Shown here in pieces: positions 6,564 through 23,344 of a stretch of 64,000 nt of DNA. Made by a program: the position numbers and the translations under genes. The notes beneath the pieces were generated by a model, which saw nothing but the letters and a program-made list of their open reading frames with translations, searched no databases and was not told the DNA's origin. Position 1 is the first letter of the stretch. Each line of letters starts with the position of its first letter. Source of the DNA: Streptomyces sp. NBC_01485 (GTDB lineage Bacteria > Actinomycetota > Actinomycetes > Streptomycetales > Streptomycetaceae); assembly GCF_036227125.1 (NCBI RefSeq), contig NZ_CP109435.1, forward strand, positions 7,502,001 to 7,566,000. The letters are read 5' to 3'.

Positions 6564-9500
6564 ATGGCGAACGAGGAGAAGCTCCGCTACTTCCTGAAGC
6601 GGGTGACGGCCGACCTGCACGAGACCCGGCAGCGGGTGCGCGAGCTGGAGGAGGGCGGGCAGGAGCCGGTGGCGATCGTCGGCATGGCCTGCCGGTTCCC
6701 GGGCGGGGTCGGGTCGCCGGAACAGCTGTGGGACCTGGTCGCCTCCGGCACGGACGCGCTGGACGGTTTCCCGGACGACCGTGGCTGGGACGTGGAGGCG
6801 CTGTACGACCCGGACCCGGACCACCCCGGGACGTCCTACGTCCGTGAGGGCGGGTTCCTGGAGGGGGCCGGCGACTTCGATCCGGAGTTCTTCGGGATCT
6901 CGCCGCGTGAGGCGCTGGCGATGGACCCGCAGCAGCGGCTGCTGCTGGAGACCGGCTGGGAGGCCGTCGAACGCGCGGGCCTGGACCCGACCACGCTGCG
7001 CGGCTCCCGCACCGGCGTGTTCGTCGGCTCCAACGGCCAGCAGTACACCGTCCAGTTGCTCGGCGACCCGACCGAGGGCATCGAGGGCTACATCGGCACC
7101 GGCAACTCGGCGAGCGTCATGTCCGGCCGTCTGTCGTACGTCCTCGGCCTGGAGGGCCCGGCGGTCACGGTCGACACGGCCTGCTCCTCCTCGCTGGTCG
7201 CCCTGCACCTGGCCGCCCAGGCGCTCCAGCGCGGCGAGTGCACCATGGCGCTCGCGGGCGGCGTCACCGTCATGACGAGCCCCGGCATCTTCATCGACTT
7301 CAGCCGTCAGCGGGGTCTGGCGGCGGACGGCCGTTGCAAGGCCTTCGCGGCGGGGGCGGACGGTACGGGCTGGGGCGAGGGCGTCGGCATGCTCCTGGTG
7401 GAGCGGTTGTCCGACGCCCAGCGGCTGGGGCATCCGGTGCTCGCGGTGGTCCGGGGCTCGGCCGTCAACCAGGACGGCGCCTCGAATGGCCTGACGGCCC
7501 CCAACGGCCCGTCCCAGCGCCGGGTCATCCGGCAGGCCCTGGCCAGCGCGGCCCTGTCGGCCGCCGAGGTCGACGCCGTCGAGGCCCACGGCACGGGGAC
7601 GACCCTGGGCGACCCCATCGAGGCGCGCGCCCTGCTGGCCACCTACGGTCAGGGCCGCGACCCGCAACGCCCCTTGTGGCTGGGGTCGGTGAAGTCCAAC
7701 ATCGGCCACACGCAGGCGGCGGCGGGCGTGGCGGGCATCATCAAGATGGTCATGGCGATGCGCCACGGAGTCCTGCCGCCCACCCTGCACGTGGACGAGC
7801 CCACCCCGCACGTCGACTGGTCGGCGGGCGCGGTCCGGCTCCTGACCGAGACGACGCCCTGGCCGCGGACCGACGCCCCCAGACGTGCGGCGGTCTCCTC
7901 CTTCGGCGTCAGCGGCACCAACGCACACACCATCCTCGAAGCCGCCCCCGAACCAGCTTCCGAACCAGCCCCTGAACCGGCTTCCGCCCCGGCCGACGCG
8001 GGCCCCGCCGAGCTGGCCGAAGACTCCCCCGAGCCTATTGCCGCCGCCGCCCTCGCGCCCTTCGCCGAGGGGGCTGCCGCACCCGTCCCCTGGGTCGTCA
8101 CGGCCCGTACCCCCGAAGGCCTGGCCGCGCAGGCCGACCGGCTCGCCCGGTTCGCCGCCGCCGACGCAGCCGACAACGGAGCGGGCGGGACACCGGTGCC
8201 CGGTCTCCTCGCCGTGGGCCGGGCCCTGGCACGCGGGCGTACGGTCTTCGAGGAGCGTGCCGTCCTGCTCGGCGCGACCGCGTCCGAACTGCGCTCCGCC
8301 GCCGAGGAGTTGGCGGCCGGTGCCGACCAGCTGGGGAGCGTCGCACGAGGGCGGGCCGCGAGGCGCGGCGGTGTTGTCTTCGTCTTTCCCGGGCAGGGTG
8401 CGCAGTGGGCGGGCATGGCCCGCGAACTGCTGGCCACCAGCCCGGTGTTCGCCGCGTCGATCGCCGACTGCGAGACGGCACTGGCACGTCACGTCGACTG
8501 GTCGCTGACCGAGGTGCTCACCGGTGACGGCGCCGAGCTGGGCCGGGTGGACGTGGTCCAGCCGGCGCTGTTCGCGGTCATGGTGTCGCTGGCCGCGCTG
8601 TGGCGGTCGGTGGGCGTGGCGCCCGCCGCCGTGGTCGGGCACTCGCAGGGCGAGATCGCCGCCGCGTACGTGGCGGGCGCGCTGTCGCTCGACGACGCGG
8701 CGCGCGTGGTGGCCCTGCGCTCCCAGGCGATCACCCGCCTGGCGGGCACCGGCGGCATGGCCTCGGTCTCCGCCCCCGTCGAACGGGTCCGGGAGCTGAC
8801 GGCGGACGGTGTCGGCGTCTCGGCCGTCAACGGCCCCCGGTCCGTGGTGGTCTCCGGAGAGGCCGGAGCCCTGGACGCCTTCCTGGCGGACTGCGCGCAG
8901 GCCGGTGTCGAGGCCCGCCGGATAGCCGTCGACTACGCCTCGCACTCCGCGATGGTCGAGGAGCTGGCCGCCGAGATCACCGGCGCCCTCGCCCGCATCA
9001 CCCCGCGGGCCCCCGCCGTGCCCATGCTGTCGACGTACACCGGCGCATGGGTCGAGGGAGCCGAACTGAACGCCCGCTACTGGTACGAGAACCTGCGCCA
9101 CCCGGTGCGGCTGCACGACGCCGTGCGGACTCTGGCCGACGCTGGGCACGCCGTGTTCGTCGAGGTCAGCCCGCATCCCGTGCTGGCGGTGCCGGTGCAG
9201 GAGACCCTGGACGAGGCGGGCGGTGGTGGCACCGCGCTCGGCACCCTGCGCCGTGACCACGGGGGCCCGGCACGGTTCACGGCGTCCGTCGCGGAGGCGT
9301 TCTGCGCCGGTGCGGCCGTGGACTGGCCGGCGCTGCTGCCCGGCGCCCCGGCCGGCCCGGTGGACCTGCCGACGTACGCCTTCCGGCACCGCCGCTTCTG
9401 GCCGTCCGCACCGGCACCGGGCGCGGGCGATCCGACGGGCCTGGGCCTCGCGGGCGTCGACCACGGGCTGCTGGGCGCGGCCATGACCCTGGCCGAGGGC

Positions 9501-12500
9501 GACGGCCTGGTGCTGACCGGCCGTCTCGCGCTGCGCGGCCGGCCGTGGCTGGCGGACCACACCGTGCGGCGGACCGTGCTGCTGCCCGGCACGGCGTTCC
9601 TGGAGTTCGCGCTGCGCGCCGCCGACCAGGCGGGCTGCGACCGGGTCGAGGAACTGACCGTCGAGACCCCGATGCTGCTCCCCGCCACCGGCGGCGTACG
9701 CGTCCAGGTCCGGGTCGGCGCCCCCGACAGCGCCGGCCGCCGACCGCTCGCCGTCCACTCGTGCCCCGACGACGCCGAGGACGACCGGCCCTGGACCCGG
9801 CACGCCACCGGCTTCCTCGCCACCGGCCCCGTCCCCGGCACGGCACGGTCCGGCGAGTCCCTGACCGTCTGGCCGCCGGCCGGCGCCGAGGCCGTCGACA
9901 CCGACGGCTTCTACCCGGCGCTGGCCGAGAGCGGCTACGGCTACGGCCCCGCCTTCCAGGGCCTGCGCCGCGTCTGGCGCCTCGGCGACGAGGTGTACGC
10001 CGACGTGGAACTCCCCGCCGACCAGCGCCGGGAGGCCGCCCGCTACGCCCTGCACCCGGCGCTGCTGGACGCCGCGCTGCACACCATCATGGCCGCCGGC
10101 CTGTTCGCCGACGACCCGCACGGCCAGGGCCGGCTGCCGTTCGCGTTCGCCGACACCGTGCTGCACGCCCAGGGCGCGTCGGTGCTGCGGGTGCGGCTGC
10201 GGCAGACCGCGGCGGACACGGTGTCCCTGGCCGTGGCCGACGCGGCCGGCGCCCCGGTGGCGACCGTGGGCGCGCTCGTCCTGCGCCCGATGGCCGAAGG
10301 GACCCTCACCGCCGACGACATCCCGGGCGGCGGCGCGGGCGACGTGCTGTACGCCGTCGAGTGGACCCCCGTAGCCGTACCGGAGACCTTGGAAGCCGAT
10401 CCGGAGCAGTCCTGGGCCCTCGTCGGCGAACTCCCGGTGCAGGCATGGGAACCGTTGGCCGCCGCAGGGGTCACCCTCGCCGCGCACCCGGACCTGTCCG
10501 CCGTATCCGCCGCAACCGTCGTGTCCGCTGTGGGCGACGGCCCCGCGCCGCCCGCGCCGCCCGTGGTGCTGCTGGACCTGCGCGCCCACGGCGCCGCCCC
10601 GGACCGCGCCCGTGAACTGACCGCCGGCGTCCTGCACACCGTCCAGCAGTGGCTCGCCGACGCCCGCTTCGACGCCTCCTGCCTGGTCGTCCTCACCTGC
10701 GGCGCGGTGCCCGCCGTGGCCGGCGAGGCGGTCACCGACCTGCCCGCCGCCGCCGTCTGGGGCCTGGTCCGCTCCGCCCAGTCGGAGCATCCGGGCCGTT
10801 TCCTGCTGGTGGACACCGACGGCGACCCCCGCTCCTGGTCCGCCCTGCCCGCCGCGCTCGCCGCCGACGAAACCCAACTGGTCCTGCGCGCAGGGACCGT
10901 GACCGTGCCCCGGCTCGTCCGGCTGCCGCCGCCCGCCGCCGGCTCCCCGGCGCCCTGGGATCCCGCCGGCACCGCCCTGCTCGTCGGCGGCACCGGTGTG
11001 CTGGGCCGCCTGACCGCCCGTCACCTGGTCACCGCACACGGCGTACGGCACCTGGTGCTGGCCTCCCGGCAGGGCCCCGCCGCCCCGGGCGCGGACGCGC
11101 TCGCCGCCGAACTGACCGAGCTGGGCGCCGAGGTCACCGTGGCCGCCTGTGACGCCGCCGACCGCGACGACCTGGCCCGGCTGCTGGCAGCCGTCCCCGC
11201 CGACCGGCCGCTGCGGGCCGTGCTGCACCTGGCGGGGGCCCTCGACGACGGCACCATCGGCACCCTGGACGCCCGGCGGCTGGACACCGTCCTGCGGCCC
11301 AAGGCCGACGCCGCCTGGAACCTCCACGACCTCACCCGCGCGCTCGACCTGACCGCGTTCGTGCTGTTCTCCTCGCTCACCGGCGTGGTCGGCACCCCGG
11401 GCCAGGCCGGATACGCGGCCGGCAACACCTACCTGGACGCCCTGGCAGCCCTCCGCCGGGCCGCCGGGCTGCCCGGCACCTCGCTCGCCTGGGGCTTCTG
11501 GGCCTCGGCCAGCGGTATGACCGGCCACCTCAGCGACACCGACCGGCGCCGCATGGCCCGCGGCGGCGTGCTGCCGCTCGACGACGAGCGCGGCATGCGG
11601 CTGCTCGACGCCGCCTGCGCCGCCGGCCGCGCACCGTCGGTCGTGCCCGTGCTGCTGGACCTGCCCGCGCTGCGCGCCCAGGCCGCCGCCACCGGACTGG
11701 CCCCGCTGTGGCGGACCCTGGTGCCGGTACGGGTGCGGCGTACCGCGGCGGCCGTCGGCGCCCCGGCCGACGCCGGCGCCGCCTGGGCCGCCCGGCTGGC
11801 CGCCCTGACCGAGGCCGAACGCGACCGCGAACTGACCGCCCTGGTCCGGGACCGGGCCGCCGCCGTGCTGGGACACGCCTCACCCGACGCGGTCGGCGCG
11901 GCCCGGACCTTCAAGGACCTCGGCTTCGACTCGCTGACCGCCGTCGACCTGCGCAACCGGCTGGCCGCCGCCACCGGCATCCGCCTGCCGGTCACCCTGG
12001 TCTTCGACCACCCCACGCCCAGCGCCCTGGCCACCCGCCTCGCCACGGAACTCCTCGGCGCCGCCTCGGCCGCCTCCCCCACGGCCGCACCGGTTTCCCG
12101 CAGCAGCGCCGAGCCGATCGCCATCGTCGCCATGGCCTGCCGCTACCCCGGCGGCGTCGCCAGTCCCGAACAGCTGTGGGACCTGGTGGCCGGCGAGACC
12201 GACGCGGTCGGCGACCTGCCCGGGGACCGGGGCTGGGACCTGGAGGCGCTCTACGATCCCGAGCCCGGACGGGCGGGCCGCAGCTACGCGCGCCACGGAG
12301 CCTTCCTGCACGACGCCGCCGAGTTCGACGCGGGCTTCTTCGGCATCTCGCCCCGCGAGGCGCTGGCGATGGACCCGCAGCAGCGGCTGCTCCTCGAGAC
12401 CTCGTGGGAGGCGTTCGAACGCGCGGGCATCGACCCGCAGTCGGTGCGCGGCAGCAGCACGGGTGTCTTCGCCGGGCTGATGTACCACGACTACGCCTCC

Positions 12501-15500
12501 CGGCTGCGCTCGGTGCCCGAGGGCGTCGACGGCTTCCTCGGCACCGGCGGCTCGGCGAGCGTCGCCTCCGGCCGCGTCGCCTACGCCCTCGGCCTCGAGG
12601 GCCCGGCGGTCACCGTCGACACCGCGTGCTCCTCGTCGCTGGTGGCCCTGCACCTGGCCGCGCAGGCGCTGCGCTCCGGAGAGTGCGCGATGGCCCTGGC
12701 GGGCGGTGTCACGGTGCTGTCCACGCCGGGGGTGTTCATCGACTTCAGCCGCCAGCGCGGCATGGCCGCCGACGGCCGCTGCAAGCCGTTCGCCGCCGCG
12801 GCCGACGGCACGGGCTGGGGCGAGGGCGCGGGCATGCTGCTGCTGGAACGGCTCAGCGACGCCCGGCGGCTCGGTCACCCCGTGCTCGCCGTCGTCCGTG
12901 GCTCGGCCGTCAACCAGGACGGCGCGAGCAACGGTCTCACCGCACCCAACGGCCCCGCCCAGCAGCGCGTCATCCGGCAGGCCCTGGCCGCCGCCCGGCT
13001 CGGCCCCGACCAGGTCGACCTGGTCGAGGCCCACGGCACCGGCACCACGCTGGGCGACCCGATCGAGGCCCAGGCCCTGCTGGCCGTCTACGGTCAGGGG
13101 CGCCCCGAGGACCGGCCGCTGCTGCTCGGCTCGGTCAAGTCGAACATCGGCCACACCCAGGCCGCGGCGGGAGTCGCGGGCGTGATCAAGACCGTCATGG
13201 CGCTGCGGCACGGCATCGCCCCGCGCACCCTGCACGTCGACGAACCGTCCCCGCACATCGACTGGACGGCCGGCGCCGTGGAACTGCTGACCCGGTCCGT
13301 GTCCTGGCCGCACACCGGCCGCCCGCGCCGGGCCGCCGTCTCCTCGTTCGGCGTCAGCGGCACCAACGCGCACGTCCTGCTGGAGCAGCCGGCCGCCGCC
13401 CCCGACCGGCGGCCGCCCGCCGACGCGCGACAGCCGTCGGTGCCGCTGCTGCTGTCGGCCCGCAGCGCGGCGGCGCTGCGCGCCCAGGCCGGCCGGCTCG
13501 CCGACCGCCTGGAGACCGGCGGTGACCGGCTGGCCGACATCGCCTACTCGCTGGCCACCTCCCGGGCCGCCCTGGAGCACCGCGCCGCCCTGGTCGGCGA
13601 CGACCCCACGGCGCTGACCGGGGCGCTGCGGGCCCTCGCCGGGGACGAGATCGCCCCGGGGACGGTCACCGGCCACCCCGACGACGACGACGGCGGCACG
13701 GCCTTCCTCTTCTCCGGCCAGGGCAGCCAACGCGCGGGCGCCGGGCGGCAGTTGTACGCCGACCAGCCGGTGTTCCGGCAGGCGCTCGACGAGACGTGCG
13801 CGGCGTTCGAGGGACTGCTCGACCGTCCGCTGCGCGAGGTGCTGTTCGCCGAGCACGGCACACCCGAGGCGGAGCTGATCGACGACACCGGCTTCACCCA
13901 GCCCGCGCTGTTCGCCCTGGAAGTCGCGCTGTACCGGCTGCTGGAGTCCTGGGGCGTGACGCCGGACGCCCTGGCCGGGCACTCCATCGGCGAACTGACC
14001 GCCGCCCACCTGGCCGGCGTCTGGTCGCTGCCGGACGCCGCCGCCCTGGTGGCCGCCCGCGCCCGCCTCATGCGCGCGCTGCCGCCCGGCGGGGCGATGC
14101 TGGCCGTCGAGGAGACCGAGGACGCCGTCCGCAAGACGCTCCAGGAGTACGGCGAACGGGTCGCCGTCGCCGCCGTCAACGGCCCCCGGGCGGTGGTGGT
14201 CTCCGGTGTGGCGGAAGCCGTCGGGGAGTTGGAAGCGCTCTGGCGTGAACAGGGTCTGAGGGTCAAGCAGTTGACGGTCAGTCACGCTTTCCACTCGCCG
14301 CTGATGGACCCGATGCTGGCCGAGTTCCGCGCGGTGGCCGAGGGCCTGACCTACAGCGAGCCCCGGCTGCCGCTTGTCTCCTGCCTCACCGGCCGGTTCG
14401 CCGAGCCCGGCACGGTCACCAGCCCCGACTACTGGACCCGGCACGTCCGGGAGGCCGTACGGTTCGGCGACGGCCTGACCGCGCTGGCGGAGCGCGGCAT
14501 CCGCGTGCTGGTGGAGATCGGCCCGGACGCGGTCCTGTCCGCCATGGCGTCCGGCGCCGCGTCGGGCGGCCCCGGCTCCGCCGCCCCCGTCGCACTGCCG
14601 CTGCTGCGCGCCGACCGCCCCGACCGCCAGGCGCTGGCCGCAGCGCTGGCCGCGCTCTTCGCCCACGGGGTCCCGGTCGACTGGGCCGCGTGCTTCGACG
14701 GCACCGGCGCGACCCGCGTCGACCTGCCGACGTACGCCTTCCAGCGCACCCACTACTGGCTGCACGACGCCCCGCCCCCGGCCGCGCCGGACGCCGCCCT
14801 GTGGACGGCGATCGAGAACCAGGACGTCGAGGAGCTGTCCCGCGTCCTCGGCGACGGCTCCGGTTCCCTGGCCGAGGCGCTGCGGCCCGCGCTGCCGGTC
14901 CTTGCGCCCTTCGTCCGGCGCACCCGCGAACAGCTCACGGGCGGCGGCCCGGCCGCCGGACCGCCGCCCGAGGCTCCGGCCGCGCCAGAACCGGAACCCG
15001 AGCCGGGCGGGCTGCGCCGCCGGCTCGCCGAGCTCCCGGAGGAGGCCAGGCACGGCCACCTCCTGGGGGCCGTACGGGCCATGGCGGCCGATGTCCTCGG
15101 CCACCCCTCGGCGGACGTCCTGGAGAACGGCCGGGACTTCCTGGACCAGGGCTTCGCCTCCCTCACCGGTGTCGAACTGCGCACCCGCCTGGCCGCCGCC
15201 GCCGGGCTGGACCTGCCCGCAGCCCTGATCTACGACTTCCCCTCCCCGGCCGATGTCGTCGCCCACCTGCTGGAACTCCTGGACCAGCACCAGGACGAGG
15301 ACCAGGCCCAGCACCAGGCCCAGCACCAGCACCAGCACCAGGCCCAGGCCCAGGCCCAGGACGAGGCGGCGGCCGGCGGCGCTCCCGTGGCCGTCCCCGA
15401 GACCGTTCCCTCGCCTCCCCCGCCTCGCCGGGCGGACGGCGTGTTCGGACCGCTGCTGGTCCGGGCGTCCGAGGAGGGCCGGACCGCCGAACTGCTGCAC

Positions 15501-16139
15501 ACCCTCGGCTCGGCAGTCGCCTTCGACCCGCGCTGGACCGGCCGCCACACCCCCGCCGCCCCGGCGCGGCCCGTACACCTCGCCCACGGCCCCGAGCAGC
15601 CCGCCCTGCTGTGCTTCGGACCGCTGACCGCGATGTCCGGGCCCATGCGGTACGCAGCCTTCGGCGCCGCGTTCGACGGGGTGCGGGACGTACTGCTGCT
15701 GCCGGCCCCCGGGTTCGGGCCCGGCGAGAGCCTGCCGCCCTCGTTCGAGGAGCTGGTGCGCCGGCTCGCCGAAGCGGTGGCGGACCTGGCGCGGGACCGG
15801 CCGGTCGTGCTGGCCGGACACGGCTCCGCCGCCGTGTCGGCCGCCGAGACCGCCCGGCTGCTCGCGGAGTCCGGGCGCGCCCCGGCCGGGCTGGTGCTGA
15901 TCGACGCCCCCGAGCCGGGCGCCGACCCGGCCGCCACGCTGGCCGCCGAACTCGCCGACGGCCTGGCGGAGGGCGACCCGCAGGTCCTGGAGGACGGGCG
16001 GCTGCTGGCCACCGGCGGCTACCTCCGGCTGCTGCCCGTCCGGCAGTTCACCGAGCCGCCGGTCCTCCCCACGCTGCTGGCCGGCCCCGGTCGGCCCGTC
16101 GACCCGGCGGCCGTCCACGACTGGTGCACCGACCTGTGA
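6564..16139 (+). CDS. Type I modular polyketide synthase: KS-AT-DH-KR-ACP-KS-AT-ACP-TE(degenerate)
   Basis: 3191 residues; ATG at 6564 follows GAGGTG at 6549-6554. An N-terminal docking helix ([18 protein letters not shown]) is followed by KS1 (Cys codon 7182-7184), AT1 (GHSQG, Ser codon 8643-8645; YASH at 8934-8945, predicting methylmalonyl-CoA), a DH (His codon 9558-9560 and Asp codon 10068-10070 present, but the conserved Gly of HxxxGxxxxP is Arg), a B-type KR ([11 protein letters not shown], Ser-Tyr-Asn set) and ACP1 (Ser codon 11931-11933). The second module has KS2 (Cys codon 12627-12629), AT2 (GHSIG; HAFH at 14283-14294, malonyl) and an ACP reading GFASL rather than GFDSL; it has no KR, so it would leave a beta-keto group. 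A Gln/His-rich linker leads to a thioesterase domain that has GHGSA in place of GHSxG and stops before the usual catalytic His. Probably the last PKS of the line; release must be explained another way if the TE is inactive. Confidence 0.95.
15284..15366 (+). repeat. In-frame CAG-rich hexamer repeat in the ACP-TE linker
   Basis: Alternating CAGCAC and CAGGCC units encode a Gln/His/Ala run (QHQ, QAQ pattern). It joins the last ACP to the TE of the PKS. Such a tract is prone to strand slippage in multiples of six bases, which would keep the frame. Confidence 0.85.
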
Positions 16140-16257
16140 TCTGTGACCTGCGACCCGTAAGCCGTATTCCGTAGCCCGTGTTTCGTATTCCATGGCCAGT
16201 AGCCCGATGATCCACTCGACAGACGTGATCCACCCGACAGAACAGAGGAACCACGAC

Positions 16258-17046
16258 GTGACGACGCACACCTCCTCCGACACCAGCCTGTGGGTGCGCC
16301 GATACCACCCGGCGCCCGACAGCCCGGTCCGCCTGGTCTGCTTCCCGCACGCCGGGGGATCGGCGAGCTACTTCAACCCGGTGTCCGCCGCTCTCTCCCC
16401 GGCCGTCGAGGTCGCCGCCATCCAGTACCCCGGACGGCAGGACCGCCGGACCGACCCGTGCGTCGGCGACCTCGGCGAGCTGGCCGCCCTGGTCTGGGAG
16501 CAGTTGAGGCAGGTGCTGGCCGAGCGGCCCGGGGTGCCGACCGCGCTGTTCGGACACAGCATGGGCTCCATCGTCGCGTTCGAGGTGGCCCGGCTGATGG
16601 AACGCGAGCCCGGCACCGGCCCCCTGGTGCTGTTCGCCTCCGGCCGCCGCGCGCCCAGCATCCCGCACGACGACAACGTCAGCAGCCGCGACGAGGCGGG
16701 CATCGTCGCCGAGATGCGGGCCCTGGGCGGCACCGACTCACGGGTGCTGTCCGATCCGGAACTGCTGGAGATGGTGCTGCCCGCGCTGCGCAACGACTAC
16801 CGGGCCGTCGAGAACTACTGCAGCGACGCCGGCACCCGGATCTCCGCGCCGGTGTCCGTGCTGGTCGGCGACACCGACCCGCGCACCTCCATGGAGCAGG
16901 TGCAGGCCTGGAGCGGGCACACCAGCGGCCCCATGGAGATCCACACCTACCCCGGCGGCCACTTCTACCTGGAGCACAACCAGGCGGCGGTGCTGGGCAC
17001 CATCCGCGACACCCTCGCCAAGCACGGCATACGGGTCGCCTCCTGA
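16258..17046 (+). CDS. Discrete type II thioesterase
   Basis: 262 residues when started at GTG 16258, which follows AGAGG at about 16242-16246; an upstream in-frame ATG at 16192 has no good ribosome binding site. Alpha/beta hydrolase of the editing type found beside PKS and NRPS genes: LVCFPHAGGSASYF near the N-terminus, nucleophile in GHSMG, catalytic His in GGHFYLEHN near the C-terminus. Such enzymes free carrier domains from aberrant or stalled acyl groups. Unlike the TE fused to the upstream PKS, this one has all its catalytic residues, so it could also contribute to chain release. The 118-bp gap upstream contains diverged repeats around ccgtattccgtagcccgt. Confidence 0.93.
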   Translation: MTTHTSSDTSLWVRRYHPAPDSPVRLVCFPHAGGSASYFNPVSAALSPAVEVAAIQYPGRQDRRTDPCVGDLGELAALVWEQLRQVLAERPGVPTALFGHSMGSIVAFEVARLMEREPGTGPLVLFASGRRAPSIPHDDNVSSRDEAGIVAEMRALGGTDSRVLSDPELLEMVLPALRNDYRAVENYCSDAGTRISAPVSVLVGDTDPRTSMEQVQAWSGHTSGPMEIHTYPGGHFYLEHNQAAVLGTIRDTLAKHGIRVAS

Positions 17047-17144: not shown

Positions 17145-19028
17145 TCAGCCGTCGGCACCGCCGGAGCCGCCGGCGTCCAGCACCTCGGCCAGGGCGCGGA
17201 CCGACGGGGCGTCGAACACCTGGGCCATCGCGATGTCGACCGCGAACTCCCGCTCCACCAACTGGCAGAGCTGGGCCGCGTACAGCGAGTTGCCGCCCAG
17301 CAGGAAGAACGACGTGTCGCGCGGCACCTGTTCCAGCCCCAGCACCTCGCCGAACACCGCCGCGAGCCGTGTCTCCGTGCCGTCCCGCGGCGCCGTGCCG
17401 GCCGCCGCCTCCTGTGCGCGCAGCCGCTCGGCCAACTCGGCCAGCGCGTGGCCGTCCACCTTGCGGTCCTCCAGCACGGGCAGGGCCGCCAGCCGGTGGA
17501 CGCGGGCGGGCAGCAGATACCCCGGCAGCCGCTCGGCGAGCACGGCCCGCACGTGTTCCGGCTCCGGCTCCGTGAGCGCCGCCGCGTCGTCCGCCGTGCC
17601 GGTCGCCGTCGCCACGTAGAACAGGCACAGGTCCTCGCACGCGCCGTCCGGCCCGTGCAGCGGGACCACCCGGCAACTGCCGACCCCGGGCACCAGCCGG
17701 GCGGTGCGCTCGACGTCGTCCAGCTCCACGCGGTAGCCGCGCATCTTGACCTGGCGGTCGGCGCGGCCGTCGAAGTGCAGCAGGCCGTCGGCCGACCGGT
17801 GGCCCAGGTCTCCGGTGCGGTAGACCGTCAGCAGGGCGCCGTCGGGGCCGACCGGGACCTTGACGAACTTCTGGGCCGTCAGCTCCGGGTCACCCAGGTA
17901 GCCCAGGGCCAGGCCCGCGCCGGACAGGCAGATCTCGCCGGTCTCGCCGACCGCGCAGGGCTCGTCGCCGTCCAGGACGTACGCGGCGGTGTTGCCGTAC
18001 GGGCGGCCGAGCGGGACGCCGGCCGTGTCCTGGCAGTCCGCGAGGGTGACGATGTGCCCGGTGGCGGCGATCGTGCACTCCACCGGCCCGTACATGTTGT
18101 GCAGCGGGATGTCCGGATGCCGTTCCACGAAGCGGCGGGCGTGCACCGGCGACAGCCGTTCGCCGCCGGTGCCGACCACGCGCAGGCCGGTGAAGGCGTC
18201 CAGGTCGGTGTCGATCACCATGTGCAGGACGGCCGTCGGCAGGAACACCGTGTCCACGCTCTGCTGGGCGATCAACTCCCGCAGCCGTCGGGCCAGTTCG
18301 ACGGTGTCGGAGAGAACCAGCACCGTTCCGCCGCCCAGCAGCACCGCCCAGGAGTCCAGCCCGAAGGCGTCCCAGGTGGCCGCCAGCGACTGCGGCATCA
18401 CCGCCCGGCCGCCCACCGGCGCGAACGCCCACTCGTCGAAGAGGCGCACATTGCCGCGGTGCGCGGTCAGCACCCCCTTGGGCGTGCCGGTGGTGCCCGA
18501 GGTGAAGAACACGGCGCTCGCGTCGTCGCCCCGCACGGTCACCTCCGGCGCCCGCCGCCCGCCGGCCGCCAGAGCGGCGAAGTCCGCCTGTCCGACCCGC
18601 CAGACGGGCACCGGCCAGGACGCGTCCTCGGCCACGGCCATCAGCGGCGCCGCCAGCCTTTCCAGCAGCGCCCCGATCCGCTCCTTCGGCCACCGCGGAT
18701 CGAGCGCCGCGTACGCGGCCCCGCGCCGGACCACCGCGAGCAGGACCGCCAGCAGCTCCGCCGACCGGGGCATCAGCACCGGCACCAGATCGCCGGGACC
18801 GACGCCCCGTTCGGCCAGTTCAGCGGCGAAGTCGTGGGATGCCGCGGCGAGTTCGGCGTAACTGACCCGGCGCGGGCCGTCCACGACGGCGGTCGCGTCG
18901 GGATAGCGGCGCACACACCAGTCGAACAGCTCGTGCATGGTCTCGCCCCGGACCGGGGGCCCGGGGAGTGGGTTCCAGGCAGGGTCGGGCAGGGGCGCGC
19001 CGGGCGTCACCGTCACCGGGCCGCTCAT
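17145..19028 (-). CDS. NRPS adenylation-PCP didomain protein
   Basis: 627 residues; ATG at 19028 overlaps the stop of the upstream NRPS gene (ATGA), so the two are translationally coupled. The adenylation domain keeps its core motifs: FFTSGTTGTPKGV (A3), MYGPVECT (A5), YRTGDLG (A7), GRADRQVKMRGYRVE (A8) and a Lys in RKVDG (A10). A PCP follows with LLGGNS (4'-phosphopantetheine Ser near 17290). No condensation or thioesterase domain. By eye the binding-pocket positions equivalent to 235, 236, 239, 299 and 301 of GrsA read D, A, L, H, M: the Asp for the amino group suggests an alpha-amino acid, but I do not recognise the code. It probably loads its own PCP or the PCP of the neighbouring protein, whose A domain is degenerate. 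Confidence 0.92.
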   Translation of the reverse strand: MSGPVTVTPGAPLPDPAWNPLPGPPVRGETMHELFDWCVRRYPDATAVVDGPRRVSYAELAAASHDFAAELAERGVGPGDLVPVLMPRSAELLAVLLAVVRRGAAYAALDPRWPKERIGALLERLAAPLMAVAEDASWPVPVWRVGQADFAALAAGGRRAPEVTVRGDDASAVFFTSGTTGTPKGVLTAHRGNVRLFDEWAFAPVGGRAVMPQSLAATWDAFGLDSWAVLLGGGTVLVLSDTVELARRLRELIAQQSVDTVFLPTAVLHMVIDTDLDAFTGLRVVGTGGERLSPVHARRFVERHPDIPLHNMYGPVECTIAATGHIVTLADCQDTAGVPLGRPYGNTAAYVLDGDEPCAVGETGEICLSGAGLALGYLGDPELTAQKFVKVPVGPDGALLTVYRTGDLGHRSADGLLHFDGRADRQVKMRGYRVELDDVERTARLVPGVGSCRVVPLHGPDGACEDLCLFYVATATGTADDAAALTEPEPEHVRAVLAERLPGYLLPARVHRLAALPVLEDRKVDGHALAELAERLRAQEAAAGTAPRDGTETRLAAVFGEVLGLEQVPRDTSFFLLGGNSLYAAQLCQLVEREFAVDIAMAQVFDAPSVRALAEVLDAGGSGGADG

Positions 19029-21985
19029 GATCCGGCCGCCAGGGTGGACATGCGCACGGCCAGGCCCGCCGGGGTCGGGTTCTCGAAGACGTCGGCCAGG
19101 CGGAGCCGGATGCCGGTGTCCTCCTCCAACTGCTGCACCAACTGCGCGGCGAGCAGCGAATGGCCGCCGCTGCCGAAGAAGTTGGCGCTCGGGCCCAGGT
19201 CCTGACGGCCGGTCAGGGTGTTCCACAGGTCCACCAGCCGTGGCGTCCAGTCGCCGTCGGCCGGCGCCGTGCGAGCCGCCGCTGCCTCGGTCGCCAGCGC
19301 GGTGGCCGCCGCGAGGTCCACCGTGCCGTCGGCGGCCGTCGGCAGCGCGTCGGTCACCATCACGAACGACGGGACGGCGGCGCGCGGCAGCCGGAGCGCC
19401 GCGTGTTCGCGTACCGCCTCGGGGCTCGGCGGCTCGTCCGGGCCGGGTGCCGGGCGGACCAGGGCCACCAGCGCGGGCTCGTCGCCGGGTGTCTGCACCA
19501 ACGCGGCCTGGGCGACCGCCGGGTGCTCGCACAGGACACTCTCGGCGCGCTCGGGTTCGACCCAGCCGCCGAGCCGGTAAAGGCGGCGCGCGGTGGCGCC
19601 CAGCACCTCGACCGTGCCGTCGGCGGTCCACCGGCCCAGCAGACCGGTGTCCACCGCGTCGCGCCCGCTCCGGGACACCCGCAGCTCACCGGTCACGCCG
19701 AGAGGCAGTTCACGTCCGCCGGGCCCGGTGACGTAGACCCGTACACCCGGCGCGGGACGCACCTCGTCCAGCCGTCGGCCGTCCGGATCCACCGGCGTCG
19801 CCGCGCCCCACACACCGCTGTCGTCCACGCGCAGCAGGTACGGACGGGCCCCGAGGGCGGTCAGCCGGCGCGCCAGACCCGCCGGCGGCGGTTCGGTCAG
19901 CAGGGCGGGCCGGGTCACCGGGCCGCCTCGGGCCAGCAGATCCCACCAGGTGGCGGGCGCGGCCCGCAGCGCGGCATGGGGGTGCCGCTCCAGCAGGTCG
20001 TCCAGAGTGCCGTCGTACCCGGTGGCGACGATCACCCGTCCGCCGGTGGCCAGTGGCAGCCACATCTCCACCACCGCCGCGGGGTCTTCGGGCGCGCCCT
20101 GCCAGACGGCGTCCACGGGGCCGCCTGCCTGAGCCTCCAGCCCGCGGGCCGCGTCCGCCAGCAGCGCGCCGAGATCGGCGTGGCTGACCACACCGTCCGT
20201 GCGCCGCCAGGCCGCAGCGGCGGGGTCGTACCCGTCTTCACCGTCACCAGTACCGGCGTCGGCACCGTCGTTCATGTCCGGGACCGGCCCGGCCGGTGTC
20301 AGGCGCATGCCGTCCGGCAGGACCAGCGCGGCGTCGCCGTCGCCCGCCTGGGTGGCGCCGCAGGCCGCGCCCGCGAGCCACACGCCCAGGACCGCCGTCA
20401 GCCCGGCCGACCCCGCCACCGCCGACACGCCCACGGTGTCGCCGGGGGCGACCCCGTGCTCACGCAGCACGGCGGCCGTGGCCCGGGCGGCGCGCCACAG
20501 CGCCGCGTACGTCACGGTCCGGCCGTCCTCCTCGACGGCCACCGCGTCCGGGGTGGCCGTGGCCCGGGCGGCGACGATCGCGGGCAAGGTGCGTGGGGTT
20601 CCGTGCTGGCGAGGGGCGTGCGCGCCGTCCACGGTCGCTTGGTCGGTTGCGCACCACGCGGTGATGTCGGCGAGCCGCCGGCCGGGATCCCGGCCCAGTT
20701 CGGCGAGCAGCGCGTCGTAGCGGTGCAGCAGCAGGTCCACGTCCTGCGCGGTGTGCGCGACCGTGGAGTACACGGCCTTGACCTCGTAGCTGCCGGGCAC
20801 CGGCGAGATCACGAACTCCAGGTCGAACTTGCTGCTGCCGGTCTCCACGACGTCCAGCCTGCCCGGCAGTCCGCCGACCAGGATCTCGCGGTTGTCGCGC
20901 CCCGGCAGGTAGTTGAAGATGTGCCGGAACAGCGAGGAGCGCCATGAGGAGTCCAGCCGGGGCGCGTCGGGCACCAGGACGTCCACGGGCGCGTCGGCAT
21001 GGCCGACCGCCTCCAGGAAGATGTCACGGGTGGCGCGGACGAACTCGCGGAAACCGAGTTCGTCGTCCACGTGGTTGCGCAGCGGCAGGATGTTGACGTG
21101 GTAGCCGATGGTCCGCTCGGTGCGCGGGCCACGGATGTTGACCGGCAGGCCCACCGCGAAGTCGGGACCGGCGCCGTGCCGCGCCAGCAGCAGGTAGTAC
21201 GCGGCGAGCAGCACCACCGCGTCCGGCGCCCGCAGTTGCCGCTGGCAGTCGTGCAGCACCGCCGCCGACTCCGCCGACAGCACATGGCTGCGCGTCGCCC
21301 CGGCCAGCGAGTCGCCGTCCACAGGACGGTCCCCGACGCGCAGTTGGGCGCCGTACGGGTCGATGCCCTCCAGGTGCCGCTGCCAGAACTTCAGGCTCGC
21401 CTCGGCGGGCTCGGGCTCCACCCAGGCGGGCACGACCTCGACCGGCGCCGCGGACAGGTCGTGGCCGTCCGCCGCGATGCCGTAGGCGGCGGCCAGCTCC
21501 TCCAGGAAGATCGAGCTCGACATGGAGTCGAAGACCAGGTGATGCACCGCCAGGCACAGCACATCGCCCTCCGGTGCCTCGAAGTGCCCCACGCGCAGCA
21601 GCGGACCGCCGTCCAGCACGAACGGCCCGAGCACGAACTCGGTCATCGAGGACCGCAGTTCGTCCTCGTGGCCGACGGTGCGGCGCTCCACCGGCAGCGT
21701 CGCGTCAGCGGCCGGCAGCAGTTCCTTGACGAGCTGTCCCGCCTCGACGCGGAAGACGGTGCGCAGCGTTTCGTGGCGGCGCGCCATCGCCTGTACCGCG
21801 TCGCCGAGCACCTGTCCGTCCAGCCGCCCCGCGACCCGGACGGCCGCACCGGGCACGTTGTTGACGCTGCCCTCGGGCACCAGGCGCTCCAGCAGCCACA
21901 GTGCCTCCTCCTTGCGGCTGACCGGCCGCGGCGCCCCCCGGGGCCGGCCGTGGTCAGCCGTGACAGTGCTCTCAGACGATCCCAT
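19025..21985 (-). CDS. NRPS condensation - degenerate adenylation - PCP protein
   Basis: 986 residues from ATG 21985, preceded by AAAGAG. The N-terminal about 430 residues are a condensation domain with an intact HHxxxD motif (HHLVFD, near 21528-21549). The following region aligns in layout with an adenylation domain but has lost the signatures: no SGTTGxPKG (only WRRTDGVVSHADL), no YGPTE, no YRTGD, RLYRLGGWVE where A8 should be, and ADGTVD without the A10 Lys. The PCP at the C-terminus is normal (GSGGHSLLAAQ, Ser near 19158). So the protein can be primed and can condense, but should not activate an amino acid itself; the coupled A-PCP protein downstream is the obvious partner. Acceptor and donor substrates are unknown. 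Downstream of the P450 in the same direction. Confidence 0.9.
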   Translation of the reverse strand: MGSSESTVTADHGRPRGAPRPVSRKEEALWLLERLVPEGSVNNVPGAAVRVAGRLDGQVLGDAVQAMARRHETLRTVFRVEAGQLVKELLPAADATLPVERRTVGHEDELRSSMTEFVLGPFVLDGGPLLRVGHFEAPEGDVLCLAVHHLVFDSMSSSIFLEELAAAYGIAADGHDLSAAPVEVVPAWVEPEPAEASLKFWQRHLEGIDPYGAQLRVGDRPVDGDSLAGATRSHVLSAESAAVLHDCQRQLRAPDAVVLLAAYYLLLARHGAGPDFAVGLPVNIRGPRTERTIGYHVNILPLRNHVDDELGFREFVRATRDIFLEAVGHADAPVDVLVPDAPRLDSSWRSSLFRHIFNYLPGRDNREILVGGLPGRLDVVETGSSKFDLEFVISPVPGSYEVKAVYSTVAHTAQDVDLLLHRYDALLAELGRDPGRRLADITAWCATDQATVDGAHAPRQHGTPRTLPAIVAARATATPDAVAVEEDGRTVTYAALWRAARATAAVLREHGVAPGDTVGVSAVAGSAGLTAVLGVWLAGAACGATQAGDGDAALVLPDGMRLTPAGPVPDMNDGADAGTGDGEDGYDPAAAAWRRTDGVVSHADLGALLADAARGLEAQAGGPVDAVWQGAPEDPAAVVEMWLPLATGGRVIVATGYDGTLDDLLERHPHAALRAAPATWWDLLARGGPVTRPALLTEPPPAGLARRLTALGARPYLLRVDDSGVWGAATPVDPDGRRLDEVRPAPGVRVYVTGPGGRELPLGVTGELRVSRSGRDAVDTGLLGRWTADGTVEVLGATARRLYRLGGWVEPERAESVLCEHPAVAQAALVQTPGDEPALVALVRPAPGPDEPPSPEAVREHAALRLPRAAVPSFVMVTDALPTAADGTVDLAAATALATEAAAARTAPADGDWTPRLVDLWNTLTGRQDLGPSANFFGSGGHSLLAAQLVQQLEEDTGIRLRLADVFENPTPAGLAVRMSTLAAGS

Positions 21986-22105: not shown

Positions 22106-23344
22106 TCAGCCCGCGGCGACCGGGAACTGCCGCAGTCCCCGGGCCGATGCCGACATCCAGCGCTCCTCCGGACCGGTCTGCCGCAGGTCCGGCAGCCGGG
22201 CCGCCAGCGCCCGGAACGCGGCGGCGGCCTCCATACGGGCCAGCGGCGCTCCCAGGCAGTAGTGCGGACCGCCGGAGAACGACAGGTGCTCGGTCTTGGT
22301 GTTGCGGGTGATGTCGAAGCGGTCGGGGTCGGGGAAGACCTCCGGGTCCCGGTTGGCGGCGCCCAGCAGAACCGCCACCAGCGACCCGGCGGGCAGGGTG
22401 TGCCCGGCCAGCTCCACGTCCTCGTGGGCGACCCGGGTCGCCAGTTGCGCGGGGGAGTCCCAGCGCAGCGTCTCCTCCACCACGCCCGAGGCCAGCTCGG
22501 GGTCCGCGCGCAGCATGTCCCACTGCTCGGGGTGGTTCAGCAGCGCCATCGTGCCGTTGGCCACCAGGTTGGTGGTGGTCTCCGTACCCGCCACGGCGAG
22601 GATGCCGCAGATCCCGATGGCCTCGCTCGTGGTCAGCACGCCCTCGCGTTCGGCCGCGACGAGCCGGCTGATCACATCGTCGCCCGGCTCCTTGGCGCGC
22701 AGCTCCATCAGGTCGGCGAACACCTCGTACAGGCCGTCGACGGTGAGCTGCAGCTCCCCGAGGTGCTCGGGCGAGACGAACCCCTCCAGCACCTGCGCCG
22801 CCCCGTGGCAGCAGTGGTCGAACTTCTCGCGGTACTCGTCGGGAATTCCCAGCAGACCCCGGATGAGGGCGATGGGAAGATGCTTGGAGAAATCCTTCAC
22901 GAGGTCGAATCCGGAAACCGGATCGAGCCGGTCGAGCAGTTCCGCGCAGACCTCTTCCACATGCGGACGGTACGTTCCCATGTGACGCGGGCTGAACAGG
23001 GGAATGGCCAGCCGGCGCATCCGGGTGTGGTCCGGCGGATCCAGCTTGAGGAACGAATCGTCCAGCGAGGAGAACTGCGGCGCCACTCGTTCCCCGGCGA
23101 CCGTACGCGTGCCGAAACGGCCGTCGCGCAGAATCCGGTTGCCCAGCGCATGGTCGGCGGTGACCCACGTGTCCACCCGGCTCAGGTGCAGCGGACCGCG
23201 CTTCCGGACCTCTTCGTACAGAGGATAGGGATTCGCCTGCCCACGCAGCAGCAGGGCGTAGGGATCCCCCAGCGCGCCCATGCTCCATATGAACCGCGAG
23301 CTCTGTAGGTAGCTTTCCATTTCTTTTTCGGTCGGGACCGGCAT
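22106..23344 (-). CDS. Cytochrome P450
   Basis: 412 residues; ATG 23344 has GAGGAG five bases upstream. Bacterial class I P450: I-helix oxygen-binding AGTETTTN, K-helix ExxR (EETLR), and heme-ligand loop FSGGPHYCLGAPLAR with the Cys codon near 22257. No membrane anchor; electrons would have to come from a ferredoxin and reductase encoded elsewhere, as none is in this window. First gene of the minus-strand operon ahead of the two NRPS genes, and divergent from the histidine kinase, so it is probably a tailoring hydroxylase or epoxidase of the cluster product. Substrate unknown. Confidence 0.95.
   Translation of the reverse strand: MPVPTEKEMESYLQSSRFIWSMGALGDPYALLLRGQANPYPLYEEVRKRGPLHLSRVDTWVTADHALGNRILRDGRFGTRTVAGERVAPQFSSLDDSFLKLDPPDHTRMRRLAIPLFSPRHMGTYRPHVEEVCAELLDRLDPVSGFDLVKDFSKHLPIALIRGLLGIPDEYREKFDHCCHGAAQVLEGFVSPEHLGELQLTVDGLYEVFADLMELRAKEPGDDVISRLVAAEREGVLTTSEAIGICGILAVAGTETTTNLVANGTMALLNHPEQWDMLRADPELASGVVEETLRWDSPAQLATRVAHEDVELAGHTLPAGSLVAVLLGAANRDPEVFPDPDRFDITRNTKTEHLSFSGGPHYCLGAPLARMEAAAAFRALAARLPDLRQTGPEERWMSASARGLRQFPVAAG

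Follow-up and report, generated by a model that had tools for sequence, protein, structure and literature searches.

A probable split terminal NRPS module with a degenerate adenylation domain in a giant, most likely tetramate-making PKS cluster of Streptomyces sp. NBC_01485

The closest described system is the one that makes bripiodionen, reported in 2024. There, BpdC is a C-A-T protein with an inactive adenylation (A) domain, in which the mutation R792A has no effect, and BpdD is an A-T protein (PMC10956176). Mutating the Ser of either T domain abolishes the product, and transthiolation has been proposed (PMC10956176). BpdE, the Dieckmann cyclase of the pathway, is inactivated by the mutation Y204F. 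Deletion of the type II thioesterase (TEII) gene bpd1 has no effect on bripiodionen (PMC10956176).

Here we describe a gene pair from Streptomyces sp. NBC_01485. The window, the whole stretch of 64,000 nucleotides that was analysed, covers positions 7502001-7566000 of a 9.14-Mb contig. We consider it likely that a giant PKS-NRPS line, most likely a tetramate-making one, ends in an NRPS module split over this pair, with aminoacyl transfer from PCP to PCP. A preliminary description had placed the pair at 17145-21985 of the window, which is right. The genes lie on the minus strand, the only strand that codes here: a reading-frame check found the plus frame closed across 17145-21985. The features of the pair are the following.

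19025-21985, minus strand: C-A*-PCP protein, 986 aa, putative acceptor subunit of the split module (ATG at 21985, stop at 19025)
20651-21925, minus strand: Condensation (C) domain (Pfam Condensation, 172.7 bits)
21544-21524, minus strand: catalytic motif HHLVFDS of the C domain (motif scan)
19286-20602, minus strand: degenerate adenylation region A*, without the A3, A5, A7, A8 and A10 motifs
19046-19252, minus strand: PCP1 (PP-binding), phosphopantetheine Ser motif GGHS at 19168-19154
19025-19028, minus strand: ATGA stop/start overlap joining both genes (sequence)
17145-19028, minus strand: A-PCP protein, 627 aa, putative donor subunit (Pfam and motifs)
17424-18956, minus strand: complete adenylation domain (Pfam AMP-binding, 223.6 bits; TIGR01733, 334.2 bits, above cutoff)
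17175-17381, minus strand: PCP2 (PP-binding), phosphopantetheine Ser motif GGNS at 17297-17283

According to the preliminary description, the A domain of the first protein has lost its ATP-binding, YGPTE and A10 Lys motifs. We confirm these losses, and A7 and A8 are gone as well. With an A domain from the same genome (locus L004) and those of relatives as controls, A* scores 0 of 5 motifs. The description had also proposed an alignment to A-domain profiles. In this alignment A* gives a weak AMP-binding match of 60 bits, best over positions 3-73 of the 384-position profile, against a full-length match in the partner protein (1-384 of 384, Pfam). The C-A*-PCP protein also matches AMP-binding_C and PP-binding.

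The C and PCP domains of this protein are intact, as had been claimed, since HHLVFDS and GGHS keep the catalytic residues. The C motif departs from HHxxxDG, with both His and Asp retained. The same is true of nearly all of the tetramate C family, in which the final Gly is substituted and both His and Asp are retained.

The second protein, too, is as first described. It has a complete A domain with 5 of 5 motifs (TSGTTGTPKG, NMYGPVE, YRTGDLG, GRADRQVKMRG, DRKVD) and its own PCP, and its ATGA coupling to the first gene is a true overlap. Its specificity code, DALFVTMIA plus Lys, read by eye against GrsA reference letters, matches no assignable code. Automatic mapping of the code was unreliable, the reference fragment being aligned out of register. 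A model of A*-PCP predicted from two aligned sequences was set aside (mean pLDDT 36).

A genome scan returned a single close relative, Streptomyces sp. yr375, with the same gene pair in the same order and the same losses, A* again scoring 0 of 5 with P-loop and A10 Lys among the missing parts. The pair is therefore not a sequencing artefact. Between the two strains identity is 94% for C, about 83-85% for A*, 96% for PCP1 and 94-95% for the partner A domain. Both strains keep the Ser of PCP1 and PCP2.

The dN/dS ratio against yr375 is 0.42 for A* (bootstrap 0.29-0.58), 0.23 for C (0.14-0.37) and 0.18 for the partner A domain (0.11-0.30); some of these intervals overlap, and the ranking of A* above the partner A domain (intervals barely touching) is firmer than that above C. 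For PCP1 and PCP2 the ratios are 0.15 and 0.29. Relative to its neighbouring domains, A* is under relaxed yet purifying selection. Relaxed but still constrained, it fits the expectation for a retained scaffold.

It is extremely improbable that A* is still partly active or has another ligand. The region is still open over about 440 residues and constrained at a dN/dS of 0.42, but all five core motifs are gone in both strains, P-loop and A10 Lys included. Furthermore, related modules have most of the A domain deleted, and the A domain of BpdC is inactive by mutation (PMC10956176).

The pair stands next to the end of a very long PKS line. Of ten large PKS proteins, eight lie wholly upstream of the window, one runs into it and one is inside. 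The line starts with a KSQ-AT-ACP loading module, and a motif count gives about 30 more KS domains. An additional A-PCP protein with an HGSIDG-like N-terminal part lies beside the first PKS gene at the 5' edge of the cluster (locus L024, 14738-18016, minus strand). Around the pair we find:

6564-16139, plus strand: last PKS protein, final module KS-AT-ACP without KR
15504-16139, plus strand: degenerate, truncated thioesterase domain fused to the last PKS module (alignment to DEBS TE)
16192-17046, plus strand: type II thioesterase with canonical GHSMG (Pfam, 176.3 bits), convergent with the A-PCP gene
22106-23344, minus strand: cytochrome P450 with heme Cys motif FSGGPHYCLG (Pfam p450, 107 bits), upstream of the C-A*-PCP gene on the same strand

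The final PKS module has no KR and is therefore predicted to leave a beta-keto thioester. In the thioesterase domain fused to it, the alignment to DEBS TE shows Gly in place of the catalytic Ser and the His-bearing end is missing; yr375 has the same changes. Judged by these residues, the terminal thioesterase is dead, and because of this the PKS would be unable to release its chain. The type II thioesterase of the window is a candidate editing or shuttle enzyme.

The cluster also carries an FAD oxidase, two P450s and two near-identical ABC transporter pairs. The P450 at 22106-23344 passes the glycosyltransferase-activator model TIGR04515 (368.5 against a cutoff of 343) despite its heme Cys, and a paralog of it adjoins the first of the cyclases listed below. 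Among the subset of cluster genes that was scanned we noticed no glycosyltransferase. A glycosylated macrolide with normal thioesterase release was considered and dropped, because the P450 keeps its heme Cys, no glycosyltransferase was seen among the scanned genes, and the thioesterase is degenerate.

The pair could also act on the finished polyketide, adding an aminoacyl group as an ester or amide made by C, or serve another cluster altogether. In either case it would not end the chain. We regard this as very unlikely. The NRPS and PKS genes do lie on opposite strands, and the upstream P450 matches the glycosyltransferase-activator P450 family, as in tailoring regions. However, the C domain falls among those of tetramate terminal modules, both strains have a degenerate PKS thioesterase, the final PKS module leaves the beta-keto group needed for Dieckmann closure, and the cluster has two cyclase genes:

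7361805-7362614 of the contig, plus strand: cyclase 1, TrdC/NcmC-type, about 140 kb before the window begins
7367408-7368166 of the contig, minus strand: cyclase 2, TrdC/NcmC-type paralog, about 5 kb further in than cyclase 1

Cyclase 1 matches NcmC in the PDB (E 7e-40). Cyclase 2 is 42% identical to it, and Cys-Asp-His is intact in both. At the position of Tyr204 in BpdE, cyclase 1 has Phe and cyclase 2 has Tyr. Because Phe stands in cyclase 1 where BpdE needs Tyr204, one of the two cyclases may not cyclise. Both lie at the opposite end of the cluster, about 155 kb from the NRPS pair, so that their co-function with the pair rests on cluster membership. The near-identical ABC ATPase/permease pairs lie either side of cyclase 2 (locus L026, 995-3543 and 6590-9099, both plus strand), and their near-identity suggests a recent duplication.

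From what can be read in the sequence (the architecture, the A motif loss, the intact C, PCP and partner A domains, the missing KR, the degenerate thioesterase and the two cyclase genes) we infer the chemistry, the order of the steps and a possible catalyst of the PCP-to-PCP transfer. First, the A domain of the A-PCP protein would activate one amino acid and load its own PCP2. Second, the aminoacyl group would be transthiolated from PCP2 to PCP1 of the C-A*-PCP protein, where the dead A* may have been retained as a spacer or docking platform. Third, C would join aminoacyl-PCP1 to the beta-ketoacyl chain held by the final ACP of the PKS. Finally, a TrdC/NcmC-type Dieckmann cyclase of the cluster would cyclise the chain and release it as a tetramate. 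The preliminary description had already suggested that the aminoacyl group moves between the two PCPs before it is condensed. For this strain, with a polyketide as the condensation partner, this is the best reading, and BpdC/BpdD provide a precedent for it.

Relatives of A* were searched for in 392 genomes of the same genus. The comparison set came from a search with cyclase 1 in these 392 genomes and 297 genomes of another actinomycete family. The search with A* brought up stand-alone C-A-PCP proteins encoded next to type I PKS genes, most of them with an NcmC-like protein as a further neighbour. Their C domains are 42-48% identical to ours, which groups with tetramate terminal modules. Of the tetramate-type modules, eleven have 0 of 5 A motifs and 22 at least three; one further module (genome G171) is intact by BLAST score.

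The modules with a dead A form a length series. After C, the A region is near full length in our strain, G090 and G388 (its first module), shorter in G368, and mostly deleted in G101, G262, G374, G215 and G137. The end point of this erosion is the second module of G388, a C-T protein with no A left. That protein adjoins a cyclase (locus L109, 4574-6733, plus strand).

A discrete, complete A partner is found in the cluster for 8 of the 11 dead-A modules, and each partner keeps the Ser of its carrier domain. At least three unrelated groups can be told apart among these partners, our A-PCP protein sharing only 31-36% identity with the rest. Parsimony on the C-domain tree requires four changes of the dead-A label, although the well-supported branches alone force no more than one origin. 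The A domain has thus probably been lost repeatedly in tetramate modules. That the loss appears recurrent, and that the discrete A-PCP partners, drawn from at least three unrelated families, always retain their carrier, lends evolutionary support to PCP-to-PCP transfer.

The same carriers bear on a simpler route, in which the A domain of the A-PCP protein loads PCP1 directly and PCP2 is a bystander or used in editing. In the capreomycin system CmnA/CmnI, the A-less module CmnI is loaded in trans by the A domain of another module (PMC12400406), and with the ATGA overlap of the genes the two products may well interact. Nevertheless, we think direct loading unlikely: the Ser of PCP2 is kept in both strains, every discrete partner A surveyed keeps a carrier with its Ser, and bripiodionen is lost when the Ser of the donor T domain is mutated to Ala (PMC10956176).

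For PCP-to-PCP transfer a catalyst may be found among the cyclases. Scoring the top candidates per genome, among related genomes and with larger flanks searched for the dead set, two cyclase-family genes occur in the genomes of 7 of the 11 dead-A modules and in 0 of the 23 intact ones (Fisher p 6e-5); when lineages, grouped by eye, are counted instead, the figures are 4 of 8 and 0 of 14 (p 0.01). As the comparison was framed after the pattern had been seen, these p-values are descriptive and no test. In G215 each copy is on a contig of its own. In G388 the two are distant from one another, each adjoining a dead module of its own, and were counted as single for each. Two copies near the chromosome ends of G226 were treated as one terminal repeat, and G119, with two cyclases and no module found, was excluded.

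In G090, G101, G262, G374 and G215 the second cyclase copy immediately precedes the A-PCP gene. One copy has the Tyr-to-Phe change at the BpdE Tyr204 position in our strain, G262 and G215. However, a lone Phe cyclase stands beside an intact module in G064, and the bripiodionen pathway needs no second cyclase. The second paralog may be an aminoacyl shuttle, a candidate for the transfer enzyme. A fuller version is possible but doubtful: a second TrdC-type Cys-Asp-His enzyme would have been recruited repeatedly as a dedicated PCP-to-PCP aminoacyl shuttle while the first copy stays a Dieckmann cyclase, and the shuttle here would be cyclase 1, with the Tyr-to-Phe change by which BpdE is inactivated.

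Several known pathways share parts of this design. Tirandamycin (TrdD/TrdC) and nocamycin (NcmB/NcmC; PMC5466765) likewise end a type I PKS with a stand-alone C-A-PCP terminal module and a discrete Dieckmann cyclase. NcmB, however, has its own A domain, predicted to select Gly (PMC5466765), whereas here that domain is dead and a second protein provides the A function. In legonindolizidine biosynthesis (LgnB/LgnD/LgnA; PMC8748450) an A-T protein likewise passes its amino acid to the T domain of an A-less module carried by a different subunit, but a TEII with a Ser triad makes the transfer, and the product is no tetramate (PMC8748450). The tetramate streptolydigin is likewise made with a discrete A protein, SlgN1 (PMC11253843), listed as an A domain plus an MbtH-like domain (PMC11253843). 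By product type, the tetramate predicted here from the genes can be likened to vancoresmycin (cyclase var15; PMC10956176), in which a tetramate ends a very long, highly oxygenated linear polyketide. Vancoresmycin is glycosylated with mycosamine (PMC13423584).

A bpd-like locus is present in G368, with C 40% and A-PCP 35% identical to ours. Its order is cyclase, A-T, C-A*-T, its sizes are at most 2 residues from BpdC/BpdD after choosing starts, and its active-site spacing is exactly that of BpdE. It is therefore bpd or a close ortholog.

The preliminary description had called the arrangement unusual. The architecture, C-A*-PCP plus A-PCP, is as it said, but bripiodionen had already provided a precedent in 2024. 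That precedent was missed there, as were the tetramate (Dieckmann) off-loading role and the seemingly dead PKS thioesterase. Novelty is low because BpdC/BpdD is a direct precedent with mutational support. New are the 11 tetramate modules among relatives whose A is lost, eight of them with a discrete A-PCP protein, and the second cyclase paralog in 7 of 11 against 0 of 23, a post hoc comparison.

Like BpdC/BpdD/BpdE, our locus combines a C-A(dead)-T protein, an A-T protein and a TrdC-type Dieckmann cyclase. Bripiodionen has a small PKS, one cyclase and an Asn-type A domain. In contrast, the present cluster, predicted to make a tetramate, has about 30 PKS modules, two cyclases at its far end and a degenerate PKS thioesterase. 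It is a clear further example of the bripiodionen-type split module in a far larger assembly line, and introduces no new principle.
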